Below, one piece after another: positions 13,923 to 30,219 of a stretch of DNA of 35,992 nucleotides (position 1 is the first letter of the stretch; every line of letters begins with the position of its first letter). Position numbers and translations under genes: made by a program. Source of the DNA: Candidatus Woesebacteria bacterium GW2011_GWB1_33_38 (GTDB taxonomy: Bacteria; Patescibacteriota; Microgenomatia; UBA8517); the NCBI GenBank assembly GCA_000990005.1, contig LBPF01000007.1, positions 1-35,992 of the forward strand, read 5' to 3'. The notes under the pieces were generated by a model that made no database searches, was not told the DNA's origin, and saw nothing but the letters and a program-made list of their open reading frames with translations.

Positions 13923-14678
13923 ATGAATTCATTTTTTGATGAGGAAAGGTTTAGAGATAAATTAGCTAAAAAGAAGAAATATAGCGAATTTCGGAAATCA
14001 TATATAAATCCTAATAATATTATAGATAAAAATACAAAAAACTTTTGGAACAGTTTTACTACGATATACAAAGAAACATTATTAAATAGTTCTGTTTATC
14101 TAGACAAAATTAATAGGATTGTAAGGTTTTTAGTCAATAAAACCGGCAATATTCTTGATATTGGATTTGGTATAGGTGAAATTGAGAAAAGGCTTCAAAC
14201 ATCAAAATTAAAAATTCATGGTATAGATATATCATCAGTTGCAGTTAAAAATGCAAAAAAAGAATTGAAAGGGACTTATAAAATTGGCAGTATTTTTAAG
14301 ATTCCATATACTACAAAATCCATGGACTTTGTACTTGCACTTGATGTTTTAGAACACATACCAGTAAATAAAACATTCAATGTATATAAAGGAATTTCAA
14401 GAATATTAAAAACAAAGGGGATGTTGATTATCTCAGTTCCTATAAACGAAAATTTAGAAGAATTGTATATTGAAAATAATAATCCAAACAATCACCTTAG
14501 AGTATATACTCCAGACATTATAAAAACTGAATTAATACTAAATGGATTTAAAATAGTCAAAACAAACTATCTTTATGCTTTTGGTAAATTTTATTTTTTA
14601 AAATCAGTTTTTATCAATTTCTTTAAACTGAATATCAGAAAACCTAATTTAATGATTATTTTTTGTCAAAAACAATGA
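13923..14678 (+). CDS. Class I SAM-dependent methyltransferase
   Basis: 'ILDIGFGIGEIEKRL', 'MDFVLALDVLEHIPVN', 'ILKTKGMLIISVP'. Confidence 0.83.
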   Translation: MNSFFDEERFRDKLAKKKKYSEFRKSYINPNNIIDKNTKNFWNSFTTIYKETLLNSSVYLDKINRIVRFLVNKTGNILDIGFGIGEIEKRLQTSKLKIHGIDISSVAVKNAKKELKGTYKIGSIFKIPYTTKSMDFVLALDVLEHIPVNKTFNVYKGISRILKTKGMLIISVPINENLEELYIENNNPNNHLRVYTPDIIKTELILNGFKIVKTNYLYAFGKFYFLKSVFINFFKLNIRKPNLMIIFCQKQ

Positions 14679-15634
14679 AAATAGTTTTTTTAACACGAAG
14701 GGCATCTCCACAAATTGGGGGGGTAGAACGCCACATACAAAAACTGAATGAAGAATTAAGAGTTAAGAATTATAATGTAAAAATTATTTCAGAAAAAGAT
14801 ATTAAGTATCCACACATTAAATTTATTGGCCTACTTTATATTTGGTTTTGGTTATTTAAAAACAGAAAATTAATTCTGGATTCTGATATCGTTCATGTTC
14901 ACGATGTTTTTATATGGTATTTACCATTTAAATTTCTATATCCTAAGAAAAAAGTATTTCTAACAATCCACGGTCTTGAGTGGAGGAATCCTTTTAACGC
15001 TTTTAGTCTTTTACAAAAAAGAATTGCAGTTAAATTATTCAATGGTTCAATTGGGGTTGGAAAATTCTTAGAAAAATATATAGGAACTAAATTTGATTAT
15101 ATTATTTATGGAGGTTTGGAGAAACATTCACAGTCAACTGTTCACCGTTCACCAAACACTTTTCTATTTGTTGGCAGACTAGAACCAGATACTGGACTTG
15201 GGGAGTTTCTGAAATTGTTAGGTTCTAGTAGTCTAGTTCACGGAACTAAGGTTGATTTTGTTGGGGATGGTTCTTTACGAAAAGAATGCGAGAGGTTCGG
15301 AACCGTACATGGTTTTTGTGATCCTACCCCATTTTATAAGAAAGCGGAGACAGTTGTACCATCAGGATACTTAACATATTTAGAAGCAAAAAGTTATAGC
15401 AGTATTCAAGAAAACCTCGCAGAAAGCTGCGAGGATGAATTGAACACTGATATGTCATCCTCCCTTACGGGGAATCTCGCATTTAAAATGCGAGGAGGAT
15501 GTCATGGATGTAAAATAAAAACTTTTTATTCTACACAACTCAAAAAAGAATATTGGGAAGAAATATTAAAATTGAAGAAATATAATACTTGGAAAGACAT
15601 TTCAAATGTCTATTTAAAATTGTGGAATGAATGA
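14663..15634 (+). CDS. Glycosyltransferase family 4-like protein carrying several in-frame inserts
   Basis: 'PQIGGVERHIQKLNEEL', 'DIVHVHD', 'LFVGRLEPDTGLGEFLKLL', 'VDFVGDGSL'; acceptor region disrupted by a hairpin insert. Confidence 0.8.
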   Translation: MSKTMKIVFLTRRASPQIGGVERHIQKLNEELRVKNYNVKIISEKDIKYPHIKFIGLLYIWFWLFKNRKLILDSDIVHVHDVFIWYLPFKFLYPKKKVFLTIHGLEWRNPFNAFSLLQKRIAVKLFNGSIGVGKFLEKYIGTKFDYIIYGGLEKHSQSTVHRSPNTFLFVGRLEPDTGLGEFLKLLGSSSLVHGTKVDFVGDGSLRKECERFGTVHGFCDPTPFYKKAETVVPSGYLTYLEAKSYSSIQENLAESCEDELNTDMSSSLTGNLAFKMRGGCHGCKIKTFYSTQLKKEYWEEILKLKKYNTWKDISNVYLKLWNE

Positions 15635-15672: not shown

Positions 15673-16677
15673 ATGAAAGTTAAAATTACTGAACTTGATA
15701 CATTAACTACTCATTCGTTAATTAAATTAGGTTTTTCTGATGAGGAAGCATTAACAATATCAAAAAATTTAATAGAAGCAGAATTGGCCGGGCGAAAAGC
15801 TCATGGTTTGAACAAAATCTTGGTAATTCAAAAAGTTCTTAAAAATAAATTCGATAATAATAATAAATATTTTGATTACATTGATTTAGATAAAAGTAAA
15901 AAAATCGAGATACTTAAACAGTCAAACCATCATTTATATATCGATGCAAATTATAAAACAGGCTATGTAGCAATTACAAAGTCATTAGAAATTGCATTGC
16001 CTCAGGCTAAAGATGTCCCTACTTTTACTGTTTCAATCAAAAATATGGGTTTTGCTTCAGGCTTTATAGGTGCATATGCTCGATTGGCAACTGAGCAAGA
16101 TTTAGTATATCTAGGATTTCATAATTCATCGGGTGGTCTTAATTACTTTGGTACGAATAAGGATCCGTTGGGAACAAACCCTATAACGATCGGAATCCCA
16201 TCAAACAGTTATCCTGTTGTTGTTGACACTTCAATGGCAAAGATAAATTGGAACGATATAGAAAAAGCAAAGAATGACAACACTTCACTACCCCAAAATG
16301 TTGCAATTGACGAACAAGGTAGTGATACAAATGATCCAAATAAAGTATTTAGTGTAAAATCGATTGCTGATTATAAAGGTACTGCGATTGCATACGGAAT
16401 AGAGCTTCTAGCTGGAGCCTTATCAGGATCAAGGGTAGGCTTTTCAAATTTTGGTGGATGGGGAAGTACTTACATATTGATCAACCCAGAATATTTTGTC
16501 GGTTTAACAAATTTCAAAAATATAATATCAAAATCAATAGAGTCGATTAAAGCTTTGGGCGAAAATGTTTACGTTCCTGGAGAAAAGTCAGGTCATATTA
16601 AAAAAAGATTAATTCAAGATGGAGAAATTGAAATCTCTGATAAAATATATCAATTGTTGGTGGACCTTATTGGATAG
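15673..16677 (+). CDS. Ldh/malate dehydrogenase-like family oxidoreductase (MDH2/YlbC/DpkA-type)
   Basis: 'ELAGRKAHGLNKI', 'GTNKDPLGTNPITIGIP', 'DTSMAKI', 'GSRVGF'. Confidence 0.75.
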   Translation: MKVKITELDTLTTHSLIKLGFSDEEALTISKNLIEAELAGRKAHGLNKILVIQKVLKNKFDNNNKYFDYIDLDKSKKIEILKQSNHHLYIDANYKTGYVAITKSLEIALPQAKDVPTFTVSIKNMGFASGFIGAYARLATEQDLVYLGFHNSSGGLNYFGTNKDPLGTNPITIGIPSNSYPVVVDTSMAKINWNDIEKAKNDNTSLPQNVAIDEQGSDTNDPNKVFSVKSIADYKGTAIAYGIELLAGALSGSRVGFSNFGGWGSTYILINPEYFVGLTNFKNIISKSIESIKALGENVYVPGEKSGHIKKRLIQDGEIEISDKIYQLLVDLIG

Positions 16678-16695
16678 TAAACTTTTAATAAATAT

Positions 16696-17424
16696 ATGAC
16701 AAACAAATTTGCAGTTATAACTGGGGCATCTACAGGAATAGGTAGAGCTACTGCTATAGAGCTTGGAAAAAATGGAGCAACTGTTGCATTAGTTGCCAGG
16801 AATAAAGAAAAACTAGAAGAGACAAAAAGATTGGTTGAAGAATCGGGAGGTAAAGGAATCATTTTTGAAGCAGACTTAAGTAGTATTGATTCAATAAACA
16901 AATTTATCCAGTCAGTTAAACAACAAACAGATAAAGTTGATATTTTGGTAAATATTGCAGGAATTTGGCATGGGGTCAGCGAAGTGTTTGCAGGAAAGGA
17001 TTTTGAGACATTTGACCAAAAAATCGTACTAGATACCTTTTCAGTCGGTCTAATTGCCCCAACACTTTTAGTACATGGTTTAGTTTCAATAATGCCACAG
17101 GGATCATGTATTGTTAATCTTTCTGGTACTTTTGAAAACGGGGCAAAAGGATGGCTTCCATATTATGTTTCTAAAAAAGGAATAGAAGATTTAACCCTAG
17201 GTCTTTCAGATGAATTAAAAAACAAGGGAATAAATGTAAATTGTATTTCTCCATCAGATACTGCAACTGAAGAATATAAAAAATATTTTCCAGAAGATGC
17301 AATTGATGCTAATTTTTCAGAAACTGTGGCTAAAGAAATAGTTGATCTTATAAATTCAAACCAAACTGGACAGTTTGTTGTAGTCAAAAAGAATGTGTTA
17401 ATCAAAGAAGGGTATCATAAATAA
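16696..17424 (+). CDS. Short-chain dehydrogenase/reductase
   Basis: 'TGASTGIGRATAIELGKNG', 'NIAG', YYVSK (YxxxK). Confidence 0.9.
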   Translation: MTNKFAVITGASTGIGRATAIELGKNGATVALVARNKEKLEETKRLVEESGGKGIIFEADLSSIDSINKFIQSVKQQTDKVDILVNIAGIWHGVSEVFAGKDFETFDQKIVLDTFSVGLIAPTLLVHGLVSIMPQGSCIVNLSGTFENGAKGWLPYYVSKKGIEDLTLGLSDELKNKGINVNCISPSDTATEEYKKYFPEDAIDANFSETVAKEIVDLINSNQTGQFVVVKKNVLIKEGYHK

Positions 17425-17469
17425 AAAGTTTCGTTAAAAAATACTGTCTAGTGGTATAATTTGACTACA

Positions 17470-18327
17470 ATGTCTGCAGAAAAGATTTCTTTACTAACCT
17501 ATGCTGAGTCTCCCAATCTTGCTGATGGTGAAAAATTGTTGCCAACTGCTTTTGAAAAAAGTGGTTTAGTTGCTGAACCTACTCCATGGGATGGCGATGT
17601 AAATTGGGAAGATTATTCAACAATAATATTAAGAGCCTGTTGGAATTATCACCTCAAACGTGACGATTTTCTCTCGTGGCTTGAAAGTCAAGAAGCTACA
17701 GGTAAAAAAATATTGAACCCATTAAATGTGGTTAAATGGAACACAGATAAACATTACTTGTTGGATTTAGAAAGTAGAGGTGTAAATATAATTCCTACAC
17801 AAATACTAGAACCTTCTGACAAGCAAAGCTTAGTTTCAGTTCTTGAGACTAGAAATTGGAAAACTGGAGTTGTTAAACCTGTAGTAGGAGCATCTGCCTA
17901 TAAAGTTCAGAGGTTTGATTTGGCAAGTGCGTCAAGCGTAGAGAAACAGCTGCAAAGAAATGAACCTTTATTAGTCCAGAGATTTTGCCCAGAGATAAAT
18001 GAAGTTGGGGAATACTCCTTGATGTTTTTTGGTGGTGTGTTTAGTCATGCTGTTTTGAAAAAACCAAAGAGTGACGATTTTCGCACTCAACCTCATTTTG
18101 GTGGTTCGGAATGGTTAGTCGAAGCAGATGGTAAAATTATAGAACAGACATCTTCAATATTAGCCAAAATTGATAGTCCACTTCTTTACGCACAGGTTGA
18201 TGGTGTCGTAGTGAATGGAGCCTTTCAACTTATGGAGCTAGAACTAGTCGAACCATATTTGTTCTTAGACTTAGTTCCTAAGGCCCCACAAGATTTTGTC
18301 AAGGCATATAAGAAATTAACTGATTGA
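17470..18327 (+). CDS. ATP-grasp domain ligase (RimK/DcsG/glutathione-synthetase-like)
   Basis: 'NTDKHYLLDLESRGVNIIPT', 'GVVKPVVGASAYKVQRF', 'GEYSLMFFGGVFSHAVLKKPK', 'LMELELVEPYLFLDL'; ATG 17470 preferred because 17455-17460 is a -10 box. Confidence 0.8.
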   Translation: MSAEKISLLTYAESPNLADGEKLLPTAFEKSGLVAEPTPWDGDVNWEDYSTIILRACWNYHLKRDDFLSWLESQEATGKKILNPLNVVKWNTDKHYLLDLESRGVNIIPTQILEPSDKQSLVSVLETRNWKTGVVKPVVGASAYKVQRFDLASASSVEKQLQRNEPLLVQRFCPEINEVGEYSLMFFGGVFSHAVLKKPKSDDFRTQPHFGGSEWLVEADGKIIEQTSSILAKIDSPLLYAQVDGVVVNGAFQLMELELVEPYLFLDLVPKAPQDFVKAYKKLTD

Positions 18328-18358
18328 CTAGAGTTTTTAAAGTGCTATATTTCAAATT

Positions 18359-19306
18359 ATGAAAATTGTCGTTTTTAACCCACAAAGTGATTTTTCTAAT
18401 GAATTACAGAAAAAGCTTTCTACTTTAGGGACCGTTGTTTATACAAAAGATAGGGGAGAATTACCAATTACTAAACTTCTAGATTTAGCAAAAGGAGCTG
18501 ATATTATAGCTTGTGATCCTGATCCACTTGGTGGTTTTGAAAAAGGTAAAGAAGTCTTAACTAAAATCATGGAATCTTTATCAAATTTGAAAGGAGTTTG
18601 TCTCTCGACAGGATCGTTCGATTGGGTTGATCTAGAATATACCAAGAAAAGAAAACTTCCTGTTAGTAATATTCCTGGATATTCAACAGAGTCTGTTGCT
18701 GAGCATACGATTGCTTATTTGCTCGGAGCTATGAAGAGGATATTTATTTCTGACAGGAGAACTGCAAAGGGTAAGTATGTATTACAGCAAGGCCTTGAAT
18801 TAAAAGGCAAGACCTTGGGAATAATTGGGTTAGGCAGTATTGGAAGGGCAACTGCATTACTAGCGAAAAAACTTGGAATGAAGGTAATTGCCTACAACAG
18901 AACAAAAAAGACAATGAAAGGTGTAAAAATAGTAACTTTAAATCAACTTCTCAAAGAATCCGATGCGATTTCATTCCATACCACTCGTAAAGACACGAAG
19001 CAAAACATGATAGGTAAAATTGAATTTTCTAAGATGAAAAAAGGTGTGTTTATAATTAATACCACACCAGATCTTCAATTAATAAATGAAAAAGCTATGA
19101 CGGATGCTTTAAAATCAGGTCAGGTTGATACTTATATTTATGAACGTAGCGATTTATCTGATGCTCCATTCAAAAATTTAGAAAATGCGATTGGATTTCA
19201 TTTCTTTGGATGGTACACTAAAGAAGCTTTGGAAAATTTGTATAATATTTGGGTTGATAACATAGTTGCACTTGCAAAAGGAAAGCCTCAAAACAGAGTT
19301 GTATAA
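18359..19306 (+). CDS. D-isomer-specific 2-hydroxyacid dehydrogenase-like protein with atypical catalytic motif
   Basis: 'GKTLGIIGLGSIGRATALLAKKLGMKVIAYNRT'; usual 'NxARG' reads INTTPD. Confidence 0.82.
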   Translation: MKIVVFNPQSDFSNELQKKLSTLGTVVYTKDRGELPITKLLDLAKGADIIACDPDPLGGFEKGKEVLTKIMESLSNLKGVCLSTGSFDWVDLEYTKKRKLPVSNIPGYSTESVAEHTIAYLLGAMKRIFISDRRTAKGKYVLQQGLELKGKTLGIIGLGSIGRATALLAKKLGMKVIAYNRTKKTMKGVKIVTLNQLLKESDAISFHTTRKDTKQNMIGKIEFSKMKKGVFIINTTPDLQLINEKAMTDALKSGQVDTYIYERSDLSDAPFKNLENAIGFHFFGWYTKEALENLYNIWVDNIVALAKGKPQNRVV

Positions 19307-19312
19307 TCATCA

Positions 19313-19900
19313 ATGTACGATTTTAAAAATATATTAGGTATCATAGCAACAATTCTTGTATTTTTGGGATATGTTCCATATGTACGCGATATTATTAATG
19401 GAAAAACAAAACCTCATATTTATAGTTGGTTTATATGGGGTTTTGTTACTCTTTTAGCTTTTGCTCTTCAATTGAGTGATAAAGCTGGTAGTGGTGCTTT
19501 TGTGACATTGGCGGCGGCCATAATGTGTTTTGTTGTCATATTTTTTGGGTTTAAGTACAAAGCCAAAGTAAAAATAGTCAAGACTGACACTATTTTTTTA
19601 ATACTTGCAATAATCTCACTTGGACTTTGGATAATTGCTAAACAACCAGTATTGTCAATACTTTTGACTGTTATGGTTGATTTATTGGGATTTGCACCTA
19701 CAATTAGAAAATCTTGGAATAATCCATTTTCTGAAACACTTTCTTTTTATTATTTGAATTCAATACGTTTTGGATTAGCTATTATTGCCTTACAAAAATA
19801 CTCACTGTTAACAGCCTTGTATCCAATTACATGGCTTATGGCAAATACACTTTTTGCCTTAATGCTAATAATCAGACGGAAGAAATTGGGTAATTTTTGA
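19313..19900 (+). CDS. Multi-pass membrane protein, PQ-loop/SemiSWEET-like
   Basis: 'IATILVFLGYVPYVRDIINGKTKPHIYSWFIWGF' and repeat 'LLGFAPTIRKSWNNPFSETLSFYYLNSIRF'. Confidence 0.6.
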   Translation: MYDFKNILGIIATILVFLGYVPYVRDIINGKTKPHIYSWFIWGFVTLLAFALQLSDKAGSGAFVTLAAAIMCFVVIFFGFKYKAKVKIVKTDTIFLILAIISLGLWIIAKQPVLSILLTVMVDLLGFAPTIRKSWNNPFSETLSFYYLNSIRFGLAIIALQKYSLLTALYPITWLMANTLFALMLIIRRKKLGNF

Positions 19901-19912
19901 TATACTTCAGAT

Positions 19913-20005
19913 GTGAAAGTTTCTGTTTGTGTAACTACATTTTTAAAAAAATATGACACTTGGGAAGACATCACAAATGTTTATTTAAAATTGTGGAAAA
20001 AATAA
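19913..20005 (+). pseudogene. Chimeric remnant: GT2 5' end fused in frame to GT4 3' end
   Basis: GTG start, VKVSVCVTT (24 nt identical to 23985-24008) + FLKKYDTWEDITNVYLKLWKK* (19946-20005, 50/60 nt identical to 15575-15634). Confidence 0.85.
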
Positions 20006-20017
20006 ATAATATTCCTC

Positions 20018-20047
20018 TTGACATTAGACTAAATAGTCGGGTAATAT
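20018..20047 (+). promoter_or_regulatory. lexA promoter with candidate LexA operator in the spacer
   Basis: TTGACA (20018-20023), 18-nt spacer, TAATAT (20042-20047); inverted repeat GACTA-AA-TAGTC at 20027-20038. Confidence 0.7.
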
Positions 20048-20053
20048 AGATTT

Positions 20054-20680
20054 ATGCTAGCCTTTTTAACCAAAAGACAAAAAGATTTACTCCAAATAAT
20101 TTATTCGCATATCAAAAATGAGGGTTATCCTCCAACATTTGAAGAAATGAGAAATTCTTTGAAGGTTTCATCCAATCAATCTGTAATTGATTTACTTACT
20201 AAACTTGAAAATAAAAAGGTAATAGTTAGAAATGAATCTTCAGCTCGAGGGCTAGTAATTCTTCCTTATGGTTATGAAATTTTAAGAGAAAAACCTTTAA
20301 CTCCATTTTTAGGAGTATCTCATGCAGGATCTCCGATTGATACTATATCAATTCAAGGTGAATGGCAAGAAATATCAAGTGAATTAACAAAACTTGTAAA
20401 TGAAGTTTTTATTTTAAAAGTCAGTGGAGATTCAATGATTAATGCGGGAATAGATGATGGAGATAAAGTTTTGGTCCAAGAACAAAAAGAATATGTTTCG
20501 GGTGATATTGTTTTAGCTGATGTTAACGGTGAATCAACAATTAAAAGATTTATGTCTGATGATAAACCGCCCTATCTTTATCTAAAACCGGAAAACCCAG
20601 CTTATTCAAATATTACCTTTACAAGTGGAGTTGAACTTAAAGGTAAAGTAGTATCAATTATTAAAAATGCCGACAATTAA
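20054..20680 (+). CDS. lexA: LexA-family repressor (S24 autopeptidase)
   Basis: N-terminal wHTH 'LTKRQKDLLQIIYSHIKNEGYPPTFEEM', cleavage site 'SHAGSPI', Ser 'VSGDSMINAGIDDGD', Lys 'STIKRF'. Confidence 0.92.
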   Translation: MLAFLTKRQKDLLQIIYSHIKNEGYPPTFEEMRNSLKVSSNQSVIDLLTKLENKKVIVRNESSARGLVILPYGYEILREKPLTPFLGVSHAGSPIDTISIQGEWQEISSELTKLVNEVFILKVSGDSMINAGIDDGDKVLVQEQKEYVSGDIVLADVNGESTIKRFMSDDKPPYLYLKPENPAYSNITFTSGVELKGKVVSIIKNADN

Positions 20681-22616
20681 ACCTAATAAAGCAAACGAAA
20701 TTATTGATAAAATTTTTAAAGATCCTTCACTTAGATTTGGTCTGAAAGAGTTTGAGGGAATGATCTTTGAAGAAATACTATATATTTCGAAAGGAGATGA
20801 AAATAGATATTTTGTCAAAGATTTAAAATCAGGAAATAACAAATTTGTCTTTGACGAATCTACACAGAATGGAAAACCAGAAGAAATAGTTAGACAACTT
20901 TGGTTATATAAACTAAACAAACACTATAAATATCAACTAGATAGGATAGATACTGAAAAGAGCATTCACTTTGGAAGAGAAATTCACGCAAAGGCAGCGG
21001 ACATTATTATTTATAAAGAGGATAAAGTGACACCATACATTATTATTGAGGTTAAAAGTCCAACAGAAGAAAAAGGTATTGATCAACTAAAAAGTTATTT
21101 AAATGCTGAAGGGTGTGAAATAGGTGTTTGGTCAAACGGTATCGATCGCGTAATTCTATATAGAAACTATCCGAATAATTTTGAAGATACACTTTCTGAA
21201 ATTCCTACTTCTAATAAAACCATTGACGATTTACTGTCAGAAAAGAGAACATTAGCCGATACAAATCCTAAAGCAGATTTAAAAAGAATAATTGAAATTA
21301 CTGAAGAACTAGTTTTAGCTAATGCAGGAGTTGATGTTTTCAATGAAACCTTCAAATTAATTTATGCAAAACTATACGATGAACAAGAAGCTGAAAATCG
21401 AGAAGATCAAGAAGTATTTTTTAGAAAATATAAAGATCCCCAGAAAACATTTTCCTCAATAAATTCACTTTTTAGAAATGCAATTCATAAATGGCCGGGG
21501 ATTTTTTTTGATCAGGAAGTAATACGGCTTACGCCAGAACATTTGAATGTTGTGGTTGGAGAGATGGAAAAAGTGCGCCTTTTTGGATCAGATTTATCAA
21601 TAATAGACGAGGCTTTTGAATATTTAATTCCTGAGGTCGCCAAAAGTAAAAAAGGTCAATACTTTACTCCTCGCCATGTAATTAATATGGCTATTAAAAT
21701 ACTAAACCCTAAACAAAGCGAATATGTTTTAGATCCCGCTGCGGGATCTGGTGGTTTTTTGGTTTCTACTATGGCTTGGGTTATGGATCAATATTTAAAA
21801 AATAACAAATTAAGACAAGAATACGCAAAAGAATATTTGTATGGAATCGATTTCGCTGATGAAACAGCAAAAGTATCAAGAGCCTTAATGCTTATAGCGG
21901 GAGATGGCCGTTCACATCTTTTTAAGTTAAATTCTCTAGATGCCCGAGAATGGCAAGGCGAAGACGAAGATAAACTTCATGCGAGGTTAGAACTTAAGAA
22001 AAGGCTTGTAAAATATAAAGACTACTCAGAGGAGGAATCTAATCAAAAAACTTTTAAAAACTTTGATTTTGACATAGTTTTAACAAACCCACCATTTGCC
22101 GGAGAACTTAAAGATCCCGGATTATTAAGACAGTATGAGTTTGGAAAGAAAAATGGAGAACTTATTAGAAAAATTGAAAGACATATTCTTTTTATTGAAC
22201 GAAATCTGCAATTTGTAAAACCTGGAGGAAGACTTGCAATAGTTCTTCCGCAAGGTGTTTTAAATAATACAAATATGAAATATGTTAGGGAATGGTTATT
22301 TGATAAAGCTAGAATATTGGCGGTTGTTGGATTACATGTTAATACTTTTAAACCTCATACTGGGACAAAAACATCGATTCTTTTTCTTCAAAAATGGAAT
22401 AATGATAAAGAACTTTTAAAAGACTACCCAATTTTTATGGCAGTATCTAAAAGAAGTGGAAAAGACAATGGTGGTGAATATATTTATAAAAAGGGTGAAA
22501 ATGGCAAACCAGTTTTTGATTTTCGAGGCAAAAAAGTAATGGATCATGACTTAGACGAAATCGCAGACAAGTTTATTGAATTTGCAAAAAAAGAAGGGTT
22601 TGAGTTTTGGAAATAA
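20667..22616 (+). CDS. Fused HsdR_N-type PD-(D/E)XK nuclease + N6-adenine methylase (BcgI-A/type IIG-like)
   Basis: 'AADIIIYKEDKVTPYIIIEVKSPTEE' nuclease motif; 'YVLDPAAGSGGFLV' and 'FDIVLTNPPFAGEL' methylase motifs. Confidence 0.87.
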   Translation: MPTIKPNKANEIIDKIFKDPSLRFGLKEFEGMIFEEILYISKGDENRYFVKDLKSGNNKFVFDESTQNGKPEEIVRQLWLYKLNKHYKYQLDRIDTEKSIHFGREIHAKAADIIIYKEDKVTPYIIIEVKSPTEEKGIDQLKSYLNAEGCEIGVWSNGIDRVILYRNYPNNFEDTLSEIPTSNKTIDDLLSEKRTLADTNPKADLKRIIEITEELVLANAGVDVFNETFKLIYAKLYDEQEAENREDQEVFFRKYKDPQKTFSSINSLFRNAIHKWPGIFFDQEVIRLTPEHLNVVVGEMEKVRLFGSDLSIIDEAFEYLIPEVAKSKKGQYFTPRHVINMAIKILNPKQSEYVLDPAAGSGGFLVSTMAWVMDQYLKNNKLRQEYAKEYLYGIDFADETAKVSRALMLIAGDGRSHLFKLNSLDAREWQGEDEDKLHARLELKKRLVKYKDYSEEESNQKTFKNFDFDIVLTNPPFAGELKDPGLLRQYEFGKKNGELIRKIERHILFIERNLQFVKPGGRLAIVLPQGVLNNTNMKYVREWLFDKARILAVVGLHVNTFKPHTGTKTSILFLQKWNNDKELLKDYPIFMAVSKRSGKDNGGEYIYKKGENGKPVFDFRGKKVMDHDLDEIADKFIEFAKKEGFEFWK

Positions 22617-22625
22617 ATTTTGTCT

Positions 22626-23966
22626 ATGACTTTTTCAATCGTCCAAAAATCTCAACTTGAAGGTGCAGACCGCATTGACCCCGAATACTATCAGCCAGAA
22701 TATATAAGATCTAAGGATGTCCTTTTTGCCCACAACCTGAAATATTTATCAGACCTTTGCAAAGTAACCGACGGAAATCATATGAGCATAAGTAATAATT
22801 TTACAAACACAGGAGTTAGATATCTCCGAGGTAAAGATTTACAAGACTTTTTTATTTCAGATAGCGACCCAATTTTTATTCCAGAGGGTGAGTATGTAAA
22901 ACTTAAAAGATCATATATTTACCAAAATGATGTATTGGTATCCATAGTGGGAACGGTAGGTCTTGTAAGTGTTGTTCCTGATAAATTTGAAAAAATTACA
23001 GGGAGTTGTAAAATTGCGATCCTTCATACAAAAACAATTCAACCAAATTTTTTAGCAGCCTTTTTAACATCAAAATATGGACAATTCCAATTAAAAAGAA
23101 AAACCGCTGGGGCAGTACAGATGGGAATAATTCTTCAGGATTTGTCAAATGTCTTAATTCCAGATTTTTCTGAGTCTGCTCAAGAAAAAATAGCTTTAAT
23201 TGTTAAAAGTTCTTACGAAACAGGAGAGAGTAGTAAAAACCTGTATGAACAGGCAGAAAGTTTACTGTTGGAAGAACTAGGATTGAAAGATTTTATAGTT
23301 CCTAATGATTTAAGTTACATTGTAAATTATTCAGATGCGGAAAAAGTTGATAGAGTTGATGCGGATTATTTTCAGCCAAAATATGATTATTTAATAAATA
23401 AACTAGGAAACAAGAAAAGACTGTCTGAATTCGCAACCAAGATAAACCCATCTATTAGAATTGAACCAAATAAAGAATATAACTATATTGAAATAAGTGA
23501 TGTAAATGTTGGATCAGGAGAAGTCATTTTCAATAGAATTACCGGAAAAGAGCTTCCAGCAAATGCAAAAGTTAAGATATCTGGCGGTGAATTGATTATC
23601 TCTAAAGTTCGTCCAACTAGAGGTGCTATTGCAATTATTCCTGGTGAATTTAATCAAGATTTTGTAGCCAGTGGGGCCTTCTCTACTTTTATTATCAATT
23701 CGCCCTCAAGGGAATATTTACAAGTAGTGTTGAGGTCATTTATTGGAAAATTGCAGATGGAAAGACCAACTACGGGAACATCATATCCAACAATTACTGA
23801 TGAGGATGTTGAAAATATATTGATTCCCAACTTAAAAATTGAAATCCAGCAAAAAATTTCTAATTTGGTTAAAAAATCACACGAAGCACGAAAAAAGTCA
23901 AAAGAATTGCTTGAGGAAGCAAAAAGGAAAGTTGAAGAAATGATTGAAGCAAATATTACTAAATAA
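22626..23966 (+). CDS. hsdS: Type I-like restriction specificity subunit (HsdS), two target-recognition domains
   Basis: Two repeats 'DRIDPEYYQPEY...' and 'DRVDADYFQPKYDYL...', 'TGTSYPTITDEDVENILIPNL'; possible TTG start at 22620. Confidence 0.88.
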   Translation: MTFSIVQKSQLEGADRIDPEYYQPEYIRSKDVLFAHNLKYLSDLCKVTDGNHMSISNNFTNTGVRYLRGKDLQDFFISDSDPIFIPEGEYVKLKRSYIYQNDVLVSIVGTVGLVSVVPDKFEKITGSCKIAILHTKTIQPNFLAAFLTSKYGQFQLKRKTAGAVQMGIILQDLSNVLIPDFSESAQEKIALIVKSSYETGESSKNLYEQAESLLLEELGLKDFIVPNDLSYIVNYSDAEKVDRVDADYFQPKYDYLINKLGNKKRLSEFATKINPSIRIEPNKEYNYIEISDVNVGSGEVIFNRITGKELPANAKVKISGGELIISKVRPTRGAIAIIPGEFNQDFVASGAFSTFIINSPSREYLQVVLRSFIGKLQMERPTTGTSYPTITDEDVENILIPNLKIEIQQKISNLVKKSHEARKKSKELLEEAKRKVEEMIEANITK

Positions 23967-24878
23967 ATGACTTCTAAAAAGGTAAAAGTTTCTGTTTGTG
24001 TAACTACAAAAAATGAGAGTGAAGAAACAATTAAAAAACTTCTTGATGCTTTAAATCATCAATCTCTAAAACCCGACGAAATTATAATTATAGACGCTAA
24101 AGATTACAATAATTGCTCAAGATCTGAGGGAAGAAATTTGGCGATTAAAAAGGCCAGAAATGAAATTATTGTTATAACTGACGCAGGATGTGTGCCAAGG
24201 AAAGATTGGCTCAAGAATTTAACCGTCCACCTCGGGGGAGCCAAGGCTCACCCCCTAGGAGTACTTGCTGATGTTGTTGCGGGAGGTTACAAAATGATTG
24301 CCAAAAATTCTTTTCAAAAAGCGATGAGATTTTACTTGGGCGTCTCGCCAAGGAAATTCGACAAGAATTTCATGCCTAGTGCAAGATCAATGGCTTTTAC
24401 TAAAACAATCTGGAAAAAGGCAGGTGGGTTCCCTGAAAAATTAAGTGGGGCAGCTGAGGACACGCTTTTTAATGTAAATTTAATTAAAGCTGGGGCAAAA
24501 TTTGTCACAGCAAAAAATGCAGTTGTAGAGTGGGGGATGCCGACAACAATTTTTAATTTTTTCGTCAAAGACGGGTTCTTTTTCTTAATTTTTAATTACG
24601 CCGTCGGCGACGGGCAAGCGGGTATCTGGTGGCACCCTGTAAAACGTTTTCAGTCGCACAATATTAAGATACTAAGTATTTATCCTCGATACATAATTGG
24701 ACTTTTGTTATTAGTTTTAAGTTTTAAGTTTTCTGTTTTTGCTTTATTACTTTATATCTTAATTACTTTATATCTTTTATATTCATACAAAAAAGCTGGG
24801 ATTTATGGCCCGATTTTACAACTTGTTTCAGATATCGCTGTTATGACAGGCTTCATCCGAGGTATAATGTGGAAATGA
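23967..24878 (+). CDS. Glycosyltransferase family 2
   Basis: 'VSVCVTTKNESEETIKKLLDAL', 'PDEIIIIDA', 'VITDAGCVPRKDWL', 'AAEDTLFNVNLI'. Confidence 0.87.
   Translation: MTSKKVKVSVCVTTKNESEETIKKLLDALNHQSLKPDEIIIIDAKDYNNCSRSEGRNLAIKKARNEIIVITDAGCVPRKDWLKNLTVHLGGAKAHPLGVLADVVAGGYKMIAKNSFQKAMRFYLGVSPRKFDKNFMPSARSMAFTKTIWKKAGGFPEKLSGAAEDTLFNVNLIKAGAKFVTAKNAVVEWGMPTTIFNFFVKDGFFFLIFNYAVGDGQAGIWWHPVKRFQSHNIKILSIYPRYIIGLLLLVLSFKFSVFALLLYILITLYLLYSYKKAGIYGPILQLVSDIAVMTGFIRGIMWK
24230..24259. repeat. GC-rich hairpin within the GT2 gene
   Basis: CCTcGGGGGAGCC-AA-GGCTcaCCCCCtAGG. Confidence 0.6.
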
Positions 24879-26083: not shown

Positions 26084-27350
26084 CTATATTTTTATTGTTG
26101 TTGGAATTTTTTTAAGACAATTTAACATAGAAAGTGATTTTTATTTTACTGGTGAACTTGGTAAAGAACTTATTTTTTCTAAATATTTAATTGACAGTGG
26201 AACTATTCCCACAATTGGAATGGCTACTTCACACGAATGGCTTTATTATGGACCAATTTATTATTGGATTTTAACCCCGTTATTAAAAGTATTTTCATTT
26301 AATCCTTACACCTTATTTTGGTTAGCATTTGCAGTTTCAATTGTGGGGTTAGTAGCTAACTATAAAGTTATTAAGAAAATAGCAAATCAAAAAGTTGCAA
26401 TTTATTCAACTGTTTTAATTAGTCTTTCCCCACTTTTTATTTGGCAAACAAGGCTTTCTAAACTGCATGTTTATTTATTTTTGTTAACCCCGATTTTAAT
26501 TTATATGATGAAGCTTGTTTGGAACGGGAAACAGCGATTTGTTTTTTGGCTTGGGCTTGTCTTTGGAATATTTTTTAGTTTTCACTTTAGTCAAATACCA
26601 TTAATTATTGTAATACTCGCTGTACTTTTAATAAAAAAATATAAAATCAAAGATTATTTTTTATTGCTATCCGGAATTCTGATTCCAAACTTTGGAATAA
26701 TAATTAAAGATTTAAAAATACTACTCTGGTTACCTTATAGAAGTTTTGGTTTATCGAGTGAATCTTCAAGTCAGACACTAGAAAGTTTTAATAATTTTTT
26801 TGGTATGCAATTCTTTTGGGATCAGAAGTTGTGGTTTCTGGGAAGTGCTTTTTCGATTTTTATTTTAATAGTTTTTTACAAAAAATATATAGAATCTGTT
26901 AATAATAACTTTTTTAATTTTTACTTAATTTTTTCAACACTTATTGTTTTTGGTGGTCTCATATTACACAAAAACCCTCCAATTCATTATTTTTTACCAG
27001 TAGCAGCAAACATTTTTTATATGACCTCAGTTTTAATGGATAAGTATTTAAACAAAAAAATTGTATTCATAATTTTTATTTTATTTTCAGTTTTAAGTTT
27101 CAGGTATTATGCCATGCCAAAAGATATTGATTACGTTCCCTATAAAAAACAACTAGAAATTTCTCAAAAAATTGTTGAGGAAAATAAAGATAATTCAATT
27201 AAAATAAATAGAATTGGACCATATGATTATTTTCCTGAAAGCTATTCACAAAATTATAAATTCTTAATTTGGTATTTGGGTGGTAAAATCGATGACAATT
27301 CAGATAATGAAGTGATTATAAATGACAATGAAAATATTAATATTAAATAA
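26076..27350 (+). CDS. Membrane glycosyltransferase-like protein (GT-C/ArnT-like)
   Basis: 'GELGKELIFSKYLIDSG', 'HEWLYYGPIYYWILTPLLKVF' and ~10 TM segments. Confidence 0.7.
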   Translation: MINYIFIVVGIFLRQFNIESDFYFTGELGKELIFSKYLIDSGTIPTIGMATSHEWLYYGPIYYWILTPLLKVFSFNPYTLFWLAFAVSIVGLVANYKVIKKIANQKVAIYSTVLISLSPLFIWQTRLSKLHVYLFLLTPILIYMMKLVWNGKQRFVFWLGLVFGIFFSFHFSQIPLIIVILAVLLIKKYKIKDYFLLLSGILIPNFGIIIKDLKILLWLPYRSFGLSSESSSQTLESFNNFFGMQFFWDQKLWFLGSAFSIFILIVFYKKYIESVNNNFFNFYLIFSTLIVFGGLILHKNPPIHYFLPVAANIFYMTSVLMDKYLNKKIVFIIFILFSVLSFRYYAMPKDIDYVPYKKQLEISQKIVEENKDNSIKINRIGPYDYFPESYSQNYKFLIWYLGGKIDDNSDNEVIINDNENINIK

Positions 27351-27903
27351 GCCAAATATTACCGATTTTGCTTCAGCACGAAATGATTTACTTCGCAATT
27401 CGAAGTCTGAATGGAATTTGTTTTTAGATGATGATGAGTCAATTTCCAATTTCCAATTTCTAATTTCCAATAAATTTTCAAACTATCAACTAATAAGAAA
27501 GAATTATTTTTTAGGGCAATATGTTGGAACGGATAAAATAATTAGATTGGTTAAAAAAGGAACTGGGAGATGGCAGAGAGCTGTGCATGAAACCTGGATA
27601 CCGAATAAAACTCCCCTGCCTGCCGGCAGGCAGGACTCCCGATGTGGGATTTTAAATTCTGTTATTATTCATAATACTGCTGACAACTTGACAGACTATC
27701 TAGCTAAAATTGATAATTATTCAACAATTCATGCAAAAGCAAATTTTGATGAAGAAAAGACCTCTAATCTTTTTAAAATTATATTTTTTCCCATTGCCAA
27801 ATTTGTAGTCACTTTTGTTAAATCAAAAAATGTTGTGTTTAGTATAATGCAATCATTGCATTCGTTTCTCTCATGGACAAAATTATATTTTTTGCAATCT
27901 TAA
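27322..27903 (+). CDS. Glycosyltransferase family 2-like, N-terminally short, with repeat/palindrome inserts
   Basis: 'DFASARNDLL...WNLFLDDDE', 'RAVHETW', 'DNLTDYLAKIDNYSTIHAK'. Confidence 0.65.
   Translation: MTMKILILNKPNITDFASARNDLLRNSKSEWNLFLDDDESISNFQFLISNKFSNYQLIRKNYFLGQYVGTDKIIRLVKKGTGRWQRAVHETWIPNKTPLPAGRQDSRCGILNSVIIHNTADNLTDYLAKIDNYSTIHAKANFDEEKTSNLFKIIFFPIAKFVVTFVKSKNVVFSIMQSLHSFLSWTKLYFLQS
27615..27634. repeat. 20-bp perfect palindrome CCTGCCTGCCGGCAGGCAGG inside the GT2-like ORF
   Basis: Exact self-complementarity; flanked by ACTCC direct repeats (27610-27614, 27635-27639). Confidence 0.95.
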
Positions 27904-29612: not shown

Positions 29613-29629
29613 TTGTTATTATATAATAA
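29613..29629. promoter_or_regulatory. Overlapping divergent -10 elements
   Basis: 14-bp palindrome TTATTATATAATAA (29616-29629) gives TATAAT on both strands. Confidence 0.55.
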
Positions 29630-29633
29630 TCAT

Positions 29634-29885
29634 ATGCCAAAAGCTTTAAAAAACTATATTTCATATAATCCAAGTATTCTTAGTGGGAATGCAACAGTTT
29701 CAGGAACAAGAATTCCTATTGACCGTGTTTTTAGTTTAGTTAAACAAGGATATTCAACTTCGAGGCTTGAGGAAGAATTTCCACATGTTGAGCCTAAGAA
29801 AATTCAAAACCTGATAGCATATCTAATGCGTGCTGGACTAGATGCCTACGAAACATCACGAAAAATACAAGTTACTTCTAGATGA
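29634..29885 (+). CDS. DUF433-family antitoxin
   Basis: 'YISYNPSILSGNATVSGTRIPIDRVFSLVKQGYSTSRLEEEFPHVEPKKI'. Confidence 0.85.
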   Translation: MPKALKNYISYNPSILSGNATVSGTRIPIDRVFSLVKQGYSTSRLEEEFPHVEPKKIQNLIAYLMRAGLDAYETSRKIQVTSR

Positions 29886-30219
29886 AGGGTTGTCTCCAAA
29901 AAATAGATATAAAAATCTAAATAATTATTTTGATGTTAAACATATAAAACATGATCTTAAAAAAGGTGCAATTAGTGATAATGAGGTTTATAAATGTACA
30001 ACAAATGAGAAACGGATATTGGTAACTTTTAATATAAAGGATTTCAACAACTTGGTAAAATTGAATAAACCATCGATAATTGCATTATCAGTAAATTTAA
30101 CTAATGATCAAGCAGATAAAAAAACCTTTAAATTATTAAAAAAATTAAAGTATACTGAATCGCTTGGTCACATTATTTCAATTTCAAATAGTCAAACCAC
30201 GATTAAAAGATTAATATAG
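29842..30219 (+). CDS. DUF5615-like PIN-like toxin
   Basis: 'LLLDEGLSPK', 'HDLKKGAISDNEVYKCTTNEKRILVTFNIKDFNN'; overlaps the antitoxin ORF. Confidence 0.75.
   Translation: MPTKHHEKYKLLLDEGLSPKNRYKNLNNYFDVKHIKHDLKKGAISDNEVYKCTTNEKRILVTFNIKDFNNLVKLNKPSIIALSVNLTNDQADKKTFKLLKKLKYTESLGHIISISNSQTTIKRLI

Follow-up and report, generated by a model that had tools for sequence, protein, structure and literature searches.

How a 93-nt open reading frame that begins as one glycosyltransferase gene and ends as another came to lie between two gene cassettes is the question raised by this locus of Candidatus Woesebacteria bacterium GW2011_GWB1_33_38. In the window (the whole 35,992-nt stretch of contig LBPF01000007.1 that was analysed), the order on the forward strand is a GT4 glycosyltransferase gene, cassette 1, the 93-nt scar, cassette 2 and a GT2 glycosyltransferase gene, as already recognized in a preliminary description of the sequence. 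The comparisons presented here support the view that the scar is a relic of recombination involving two occupants of one slot, and its origin was probably a single transfer, in which a linear fragment from a donor (GT4-cassette 1-GT2) was joined to the resident DNA by a homologous left end and an illegitimate right end.

Composition of the locus and of the scar

The intact GT4 gene (14663..15634; Pfam Glyco_transf_4, E 2e-8) precedes cassette 1 (15673..19900), in which Pfam and NCBIfam matches point to five genes, encoding an Ldh_2-type dehydrogenase, an SDR, a GSH-S/DcsG-like ATP-grasp protein, a D-2-hydroxyacid dehydrogenase and a small membrane protein. Cassette 2 (20054..23966) carries the genes for a LexA-family regulator, for an HsdM with an N-terminal HSDR_N_2 nuclease-like domain and for an HsdS, and is preceded by a promoter region (20006..20053) where the palindrome GACTAAATAGTC (20027-20038) is placed between TTGACA and a -10-like region. 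The intact, resident GT2 gene (23967..24878; Pfam Glycos_transf_2) closes the series. GC content proved uninformative as a marker of cassette origin (0.33 vs. 0.32).

The scar itself (19913-20005) codes for 30 amino acids followed by a stop and reads VKVSVCVTTFLKKYDTWEDITNVYLKLWKK. Its first portion (19913..19939) is the 5′ end of a GT2 gene (start codon GTG, MKVSVCVTT) sharing 26 of 27 nt with positions 23982-24008 of the resident GT2; the 24-nt identity previously noticed to 23985-24008 is indeed exact, at 19916-19939, and the match extends from there back to 19913. Three bases, TTT, form the joint (19940..19942) and belong to neither half when compared with the intact GT2, the intact GT4 and the GT4 and GT2 genes of the same-genus relative G001, and in the same comparison no microhomology was visible. 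The remaining portion (19943..20005) corresponds to the 3′ end of GT4, with 84% identity between 19943-20003 and 15572-15632, and recomputation of the match of the last 60 nt to the intact GT4 end returned the 50/60 identical positions originally counted. When the 845,411-base genome was searched, these were the only strong matches (E = 2.8e-6 for the GT2 head and 1.7e-12 for the GT4 tail), the next-best match to the scar halves having an E value of 0.019.

The final gene of cassette 1 stops 12 nt before the GT2 head, whose GTG start faces a GTA at the corresponding place in the resident GT2. Because of this spacing and this difference, the head seems to be the 5′ end of a further GT2 allele and not a duplicate of the resident junction. 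The in-frame character of the fusion, pointed out in the preliminary description, carries no weight, being a 1-in-3 chance, and is no evidence for a functional peptide; with no ribosome-binding site evident before the GTG, a functional fusion peptide was ruled out.

The GT4-GT2 boundary in relatives

The family survey comprised 32 other loci with this GT2, 22 of them with a GT4 upstream. In 18/22 the distance from the GT4 stop to the GT2 start lay between -35 and +48 nt, i.e., the two genes overlap or abut, while the slot was filled in the other four: by a restriction-modification (RM) cassette in G001, by a glycosyltransferase-like membrane protein in G011, and by short reverse-strand ORFs in G021 and G008. 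Since the boundary is mostly empty and otherwise variably filled, the most likely ancestral state is a GT4 adjoining GT2, with the boundary acting as a recurrent insertion slot. The proposal that swappable cassettes lie between GT4 and GT2, and the suggestion to look in related genomes for such junctions with different contents, were thus borne out: a slot with differing cargo among relatives, within a variable glycan and defence region, is supported, and the boundary is marked as a variable place amid otherwise conserved glycan genes. The start of GT2 is not conserved at the DNA level outside the genus. One further locus, in G063 (L163), where no GT4 was found, differs strongly in the stretch that runs from the conserved ParB/LepB/IMPDH block to GT2, and there GT2 is preceded by a membrane protein related to that of G011 and by a different, 933-aa methylase-like protein.

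At the genus level the comparison rests on one other species, G001 (Ca. Woesebacteria GW2011_GWB1_33_22), in which the same flanking genes enclose the order GT4-LexA-HsdM-ATPase-HsdS-GT2, with LexA, HsdM and HsdS orthologous to those of cassette 2 and GT2 syntenic; both cassette 1 and the scar are missing from this locus. The scar's GT4 tail and the spacer before LexA are 77% identical over 132 nt to the GT4 end and spacer of G001, including TTGACA and the palindrome. As the tail continues into the same pre-LexA promoter and operator as in G001, it is the displaced end of the resident GT4. The intact GT4 3′ end is probably an incoming allele or a mosaic. Over the 60-nt GT4 ends, identities were 50 between scar and intact copy, 49 between scar and G001 and 44 between intact copy and G001 (10, 11, and 16 differences, respectively); these near-equal distances, over a length too short for a real tree, are as would be expected of alleles from separate lineages and not of a recent copy made within the genome.

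Fourfold-site identity to G001 was 32/69 (0.46) for LexA and 96/188 (0.51) for HsdM, against a local background of 885/1562 (0.57). With such background-like divergence, the RM cassette probably dates back to the genus split, and, as it and its spacer occupy the same slot in G001, cassette 1 is the likely newcomer. Its genes are absent from the G001 locus and from all the surveyed family GT2 loci. The three cassette-1 genes that were searched class-wide, for the ATP-grasp protein, the membrane protein and the Ldh_2 dehydrogenase, have relatives in the class outside this family: the ATP-grasp gene was not found in the other 49 family genomes searched, and the membrane protein shares 72% identity with proteins of other families vs. 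about 50% within its own. Within flanks of about 1.5 kb on each side, no other cassette-1 gene accompanied the ATP-grasp and membrane-protein matches, and the 2-hydroxyacid dehydrogenase had no relative in viral contigs. Alternatively, cassette 1 could conceivably have been lost in G001 through recombination between two GT4 ends.

To the left of GT4, the gene mt2 showed a fourfold identity to G001 of 43/57 (0.75), above the background (p = 0.006, one of seven tests), while that of GT4 was not significantly raised (p = 0.24). The mt2 value fits an import of the left stretch without being decisive, and a scan for breakpoints along mt2-GT4 gave no clear border.

One illegitimate end, and the alternatives

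In the reading favoured here, the ancestor would have carried GT4-[LexA-HsdM-HsdS]-GT2, as the genus relative does, and a related lineage would have served as donor, presumably with the five-gene cassette in its own GT4-GT2 slot, although GT4-cassette 1-GT2 did not turn up in any genome. A linear fragment would have entered the cell, probably by natural transformation, and its left end would have recombined homologously with the resident DNA somewhere in or near GT4. At the right end, a break about 27 nt into the donor GT2 would have been joined, free of homology, to a point some 60 nt short of the stop of the resident GT4, leaving a mosaic GT4, cassette 1, the donor GT2 start fused to the resident GT4 end, the RM cassette and GT2. 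Such a process would be homology-facilitated illegitimate recombination (HFIR), known from naturally competent bacteria, where homology anchors one end of a linear fragment and the other is joined illegitimately (PMC3240628). The border at 19939/19943 shows three unassigned bases and no microhomology, G001 preserves an insert-free ancestral state, and the host has a match to DNA uptake machinery, a ComEC competence domain (E 5e-45) in an intact 354-aa ORF and, on sequence inspection, an MBL-like 275-aa ORF and a ComEA-like ORF as its neighbors; natural competence has been proposed for Patescibacteria (PMC12455944).

The fragment proposed here would have the same two kinds of ends as in HFIR (PMC3240628), although the present case is deduced from one genome and not from an experiment; in that genome the resident genes flanking the slot were kept and no resident deletion is evident beyond the displaced GT4 body. 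HFIR has also been proposed for displaced gene ends in the T6SS arrays of Vibrio cholerae, with Rhs loci cited as well (PMC5361080). In those effector-immunity arrays too a new module comes to lie beside the old one, whose 3′ end is shifted downstream as a remnant; there, however, what is displaced contains a functional immunity gene, whereas here it is a 60-nt end without evident function, in a glycosyltransferase and RM locus of a Patescibacterium. Patescibacterial genomic islands share with the present locus the horizontal acquisition of RM and metabolic genes by streamlined genomes (PMC12455944), but here the junction scar is resolved at the base level. The scar is an instructive but ordinary recombination trace after gene transfer, of a kind already known. 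Its interest lies in the unusual clarity with which it preserves cassette stacking in an uncultured groundwater Patescibacterium, the order of events being readable from 93 bases, and in its value as evidence that a streamlined genome can take foreign DNA joined with one illegitimate end.

The preliminary description read the window as two full tandem units (GT4-cassette 1-GT2-GT4-cassette 2-GT2), the middle GT2-GT4 pair of which later collapsed by deletion to 93 nt. This history would end in an identical gene order and scar, and we consider it unlikely. It requires an extra step where a single insertion gives the same product, the GT4 tail of the scar being the resident end before the LexA promoter; that tail is no more decayed than the intact end, by the differences given above for a tiny sample; and the undeleted ancestor that was to be sought in relatives did not appear among the 32 other family GT2 loci, one of them from the same genus, nor was a tandem seen in any genome.

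Slightly less likely still is the mirror image, with GT4-cassette 1-GT2 as the resident arrangement and an incoming GT4-RM-GT2 fragment attached at its left by an illegitimate joint to the start of the resident GT2. It is symmetrical with the single insertion of cassette 1 and compatible with the scar itself, but the divergence of the RM genes from G001 is as expected of vertical descent, the RM cassette and spacer hold the same slot there, and cassette 1 is missing from the GT2 loci of all relatives.

An assembly chimera that merged co-occurring strains, of which one carried cassette 1 in the slot and the other the RM cassette, is improbable. The genome is a draft of 14 contigs and both forms are conceivable in one community; nonetheless, no shared sequence that could misguide a k-mer assembler was seen at the joint, there are no Ns, and the copies flanking the seam are either diverged (84%) or very short (24 nt).

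Least credible of all is a site-specific or programmed cassette exchange using GT2 starts or GT4 ends as attachment sites, since, for all that direct repeats exist (GT4 ends around cassette 1, GT2 starts around cassette 2), no recombinase, integrase or transposase was found in the genes that separate GT4 from GT2, the left GT2 start is missing at the G001 RM cassette, and DNA-level conservation of the GT2 start stops at the genus; an integron, ICE or phage-type cassette was rejected on the lack of an integrase or transposase and of a matching repeat at the G001 cassette. We likewise give little credence to the broader idea that breakage and joining are favoured at this boundary (in several relatives GT4 and GT2 overlap there by as much as ~35 nt), so that whole glycan, metabolic and defence cassettes can be stacked or swapped without a dedicated recombinase.

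The restriction-modification cassette and further observations

In cassette 2, the HSDR_N_2 and N6_Mtase domains lie within one protein (20667-22616), followed by a Methylase_S protein. This composition, in which methylase and nuclease domain share one chain and the S subunit is separate, would resemble BcgI-like or type I-like RM systems, and given the HSDR_N_2 domain on the HsdM-like methylase, restriction without a separate HsdR may be possible. The palindrome before LexA occurs once in this genome and at the same place in G001, and is a probable private operator for the LexA-family regulator of the RM cassette; the pattern GACTANNTAGTC has a single occurrence in this genome. In G001, the interval between HsdM and HsdS holds an AAA-ATPase gene (L058:9044-10759), absent in the window, with weak matches to defence ATPases such as AriA, PtuA and GajA.

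Farther downstream, a gene pair at 29613-30219 (90 and 125 aa) showed fourfold identities to G001 of 0.89 and 0.82 vs. the background of 0.57. It is possibly a toxin-antitoxin pair, and its high conservation suggests a recent exchange.

Palindromic stretches were also observed in frame inside three coding genes, namely GT4 (15400-15505), GT2 (24220-24270) and the gene at 27322 (27614-27634), where the stretch is CCTGCCTGCCGGCAGGCAGG, and they recall the Rickettsia palindromic elements. The one in GT4 constitutes a 36-aa insert missing from the G001 orthologue, in which (L058) a similar palindromic stretch, CCTGCCTGCGCAGGCAGG, occurs elsewhere in the gene.
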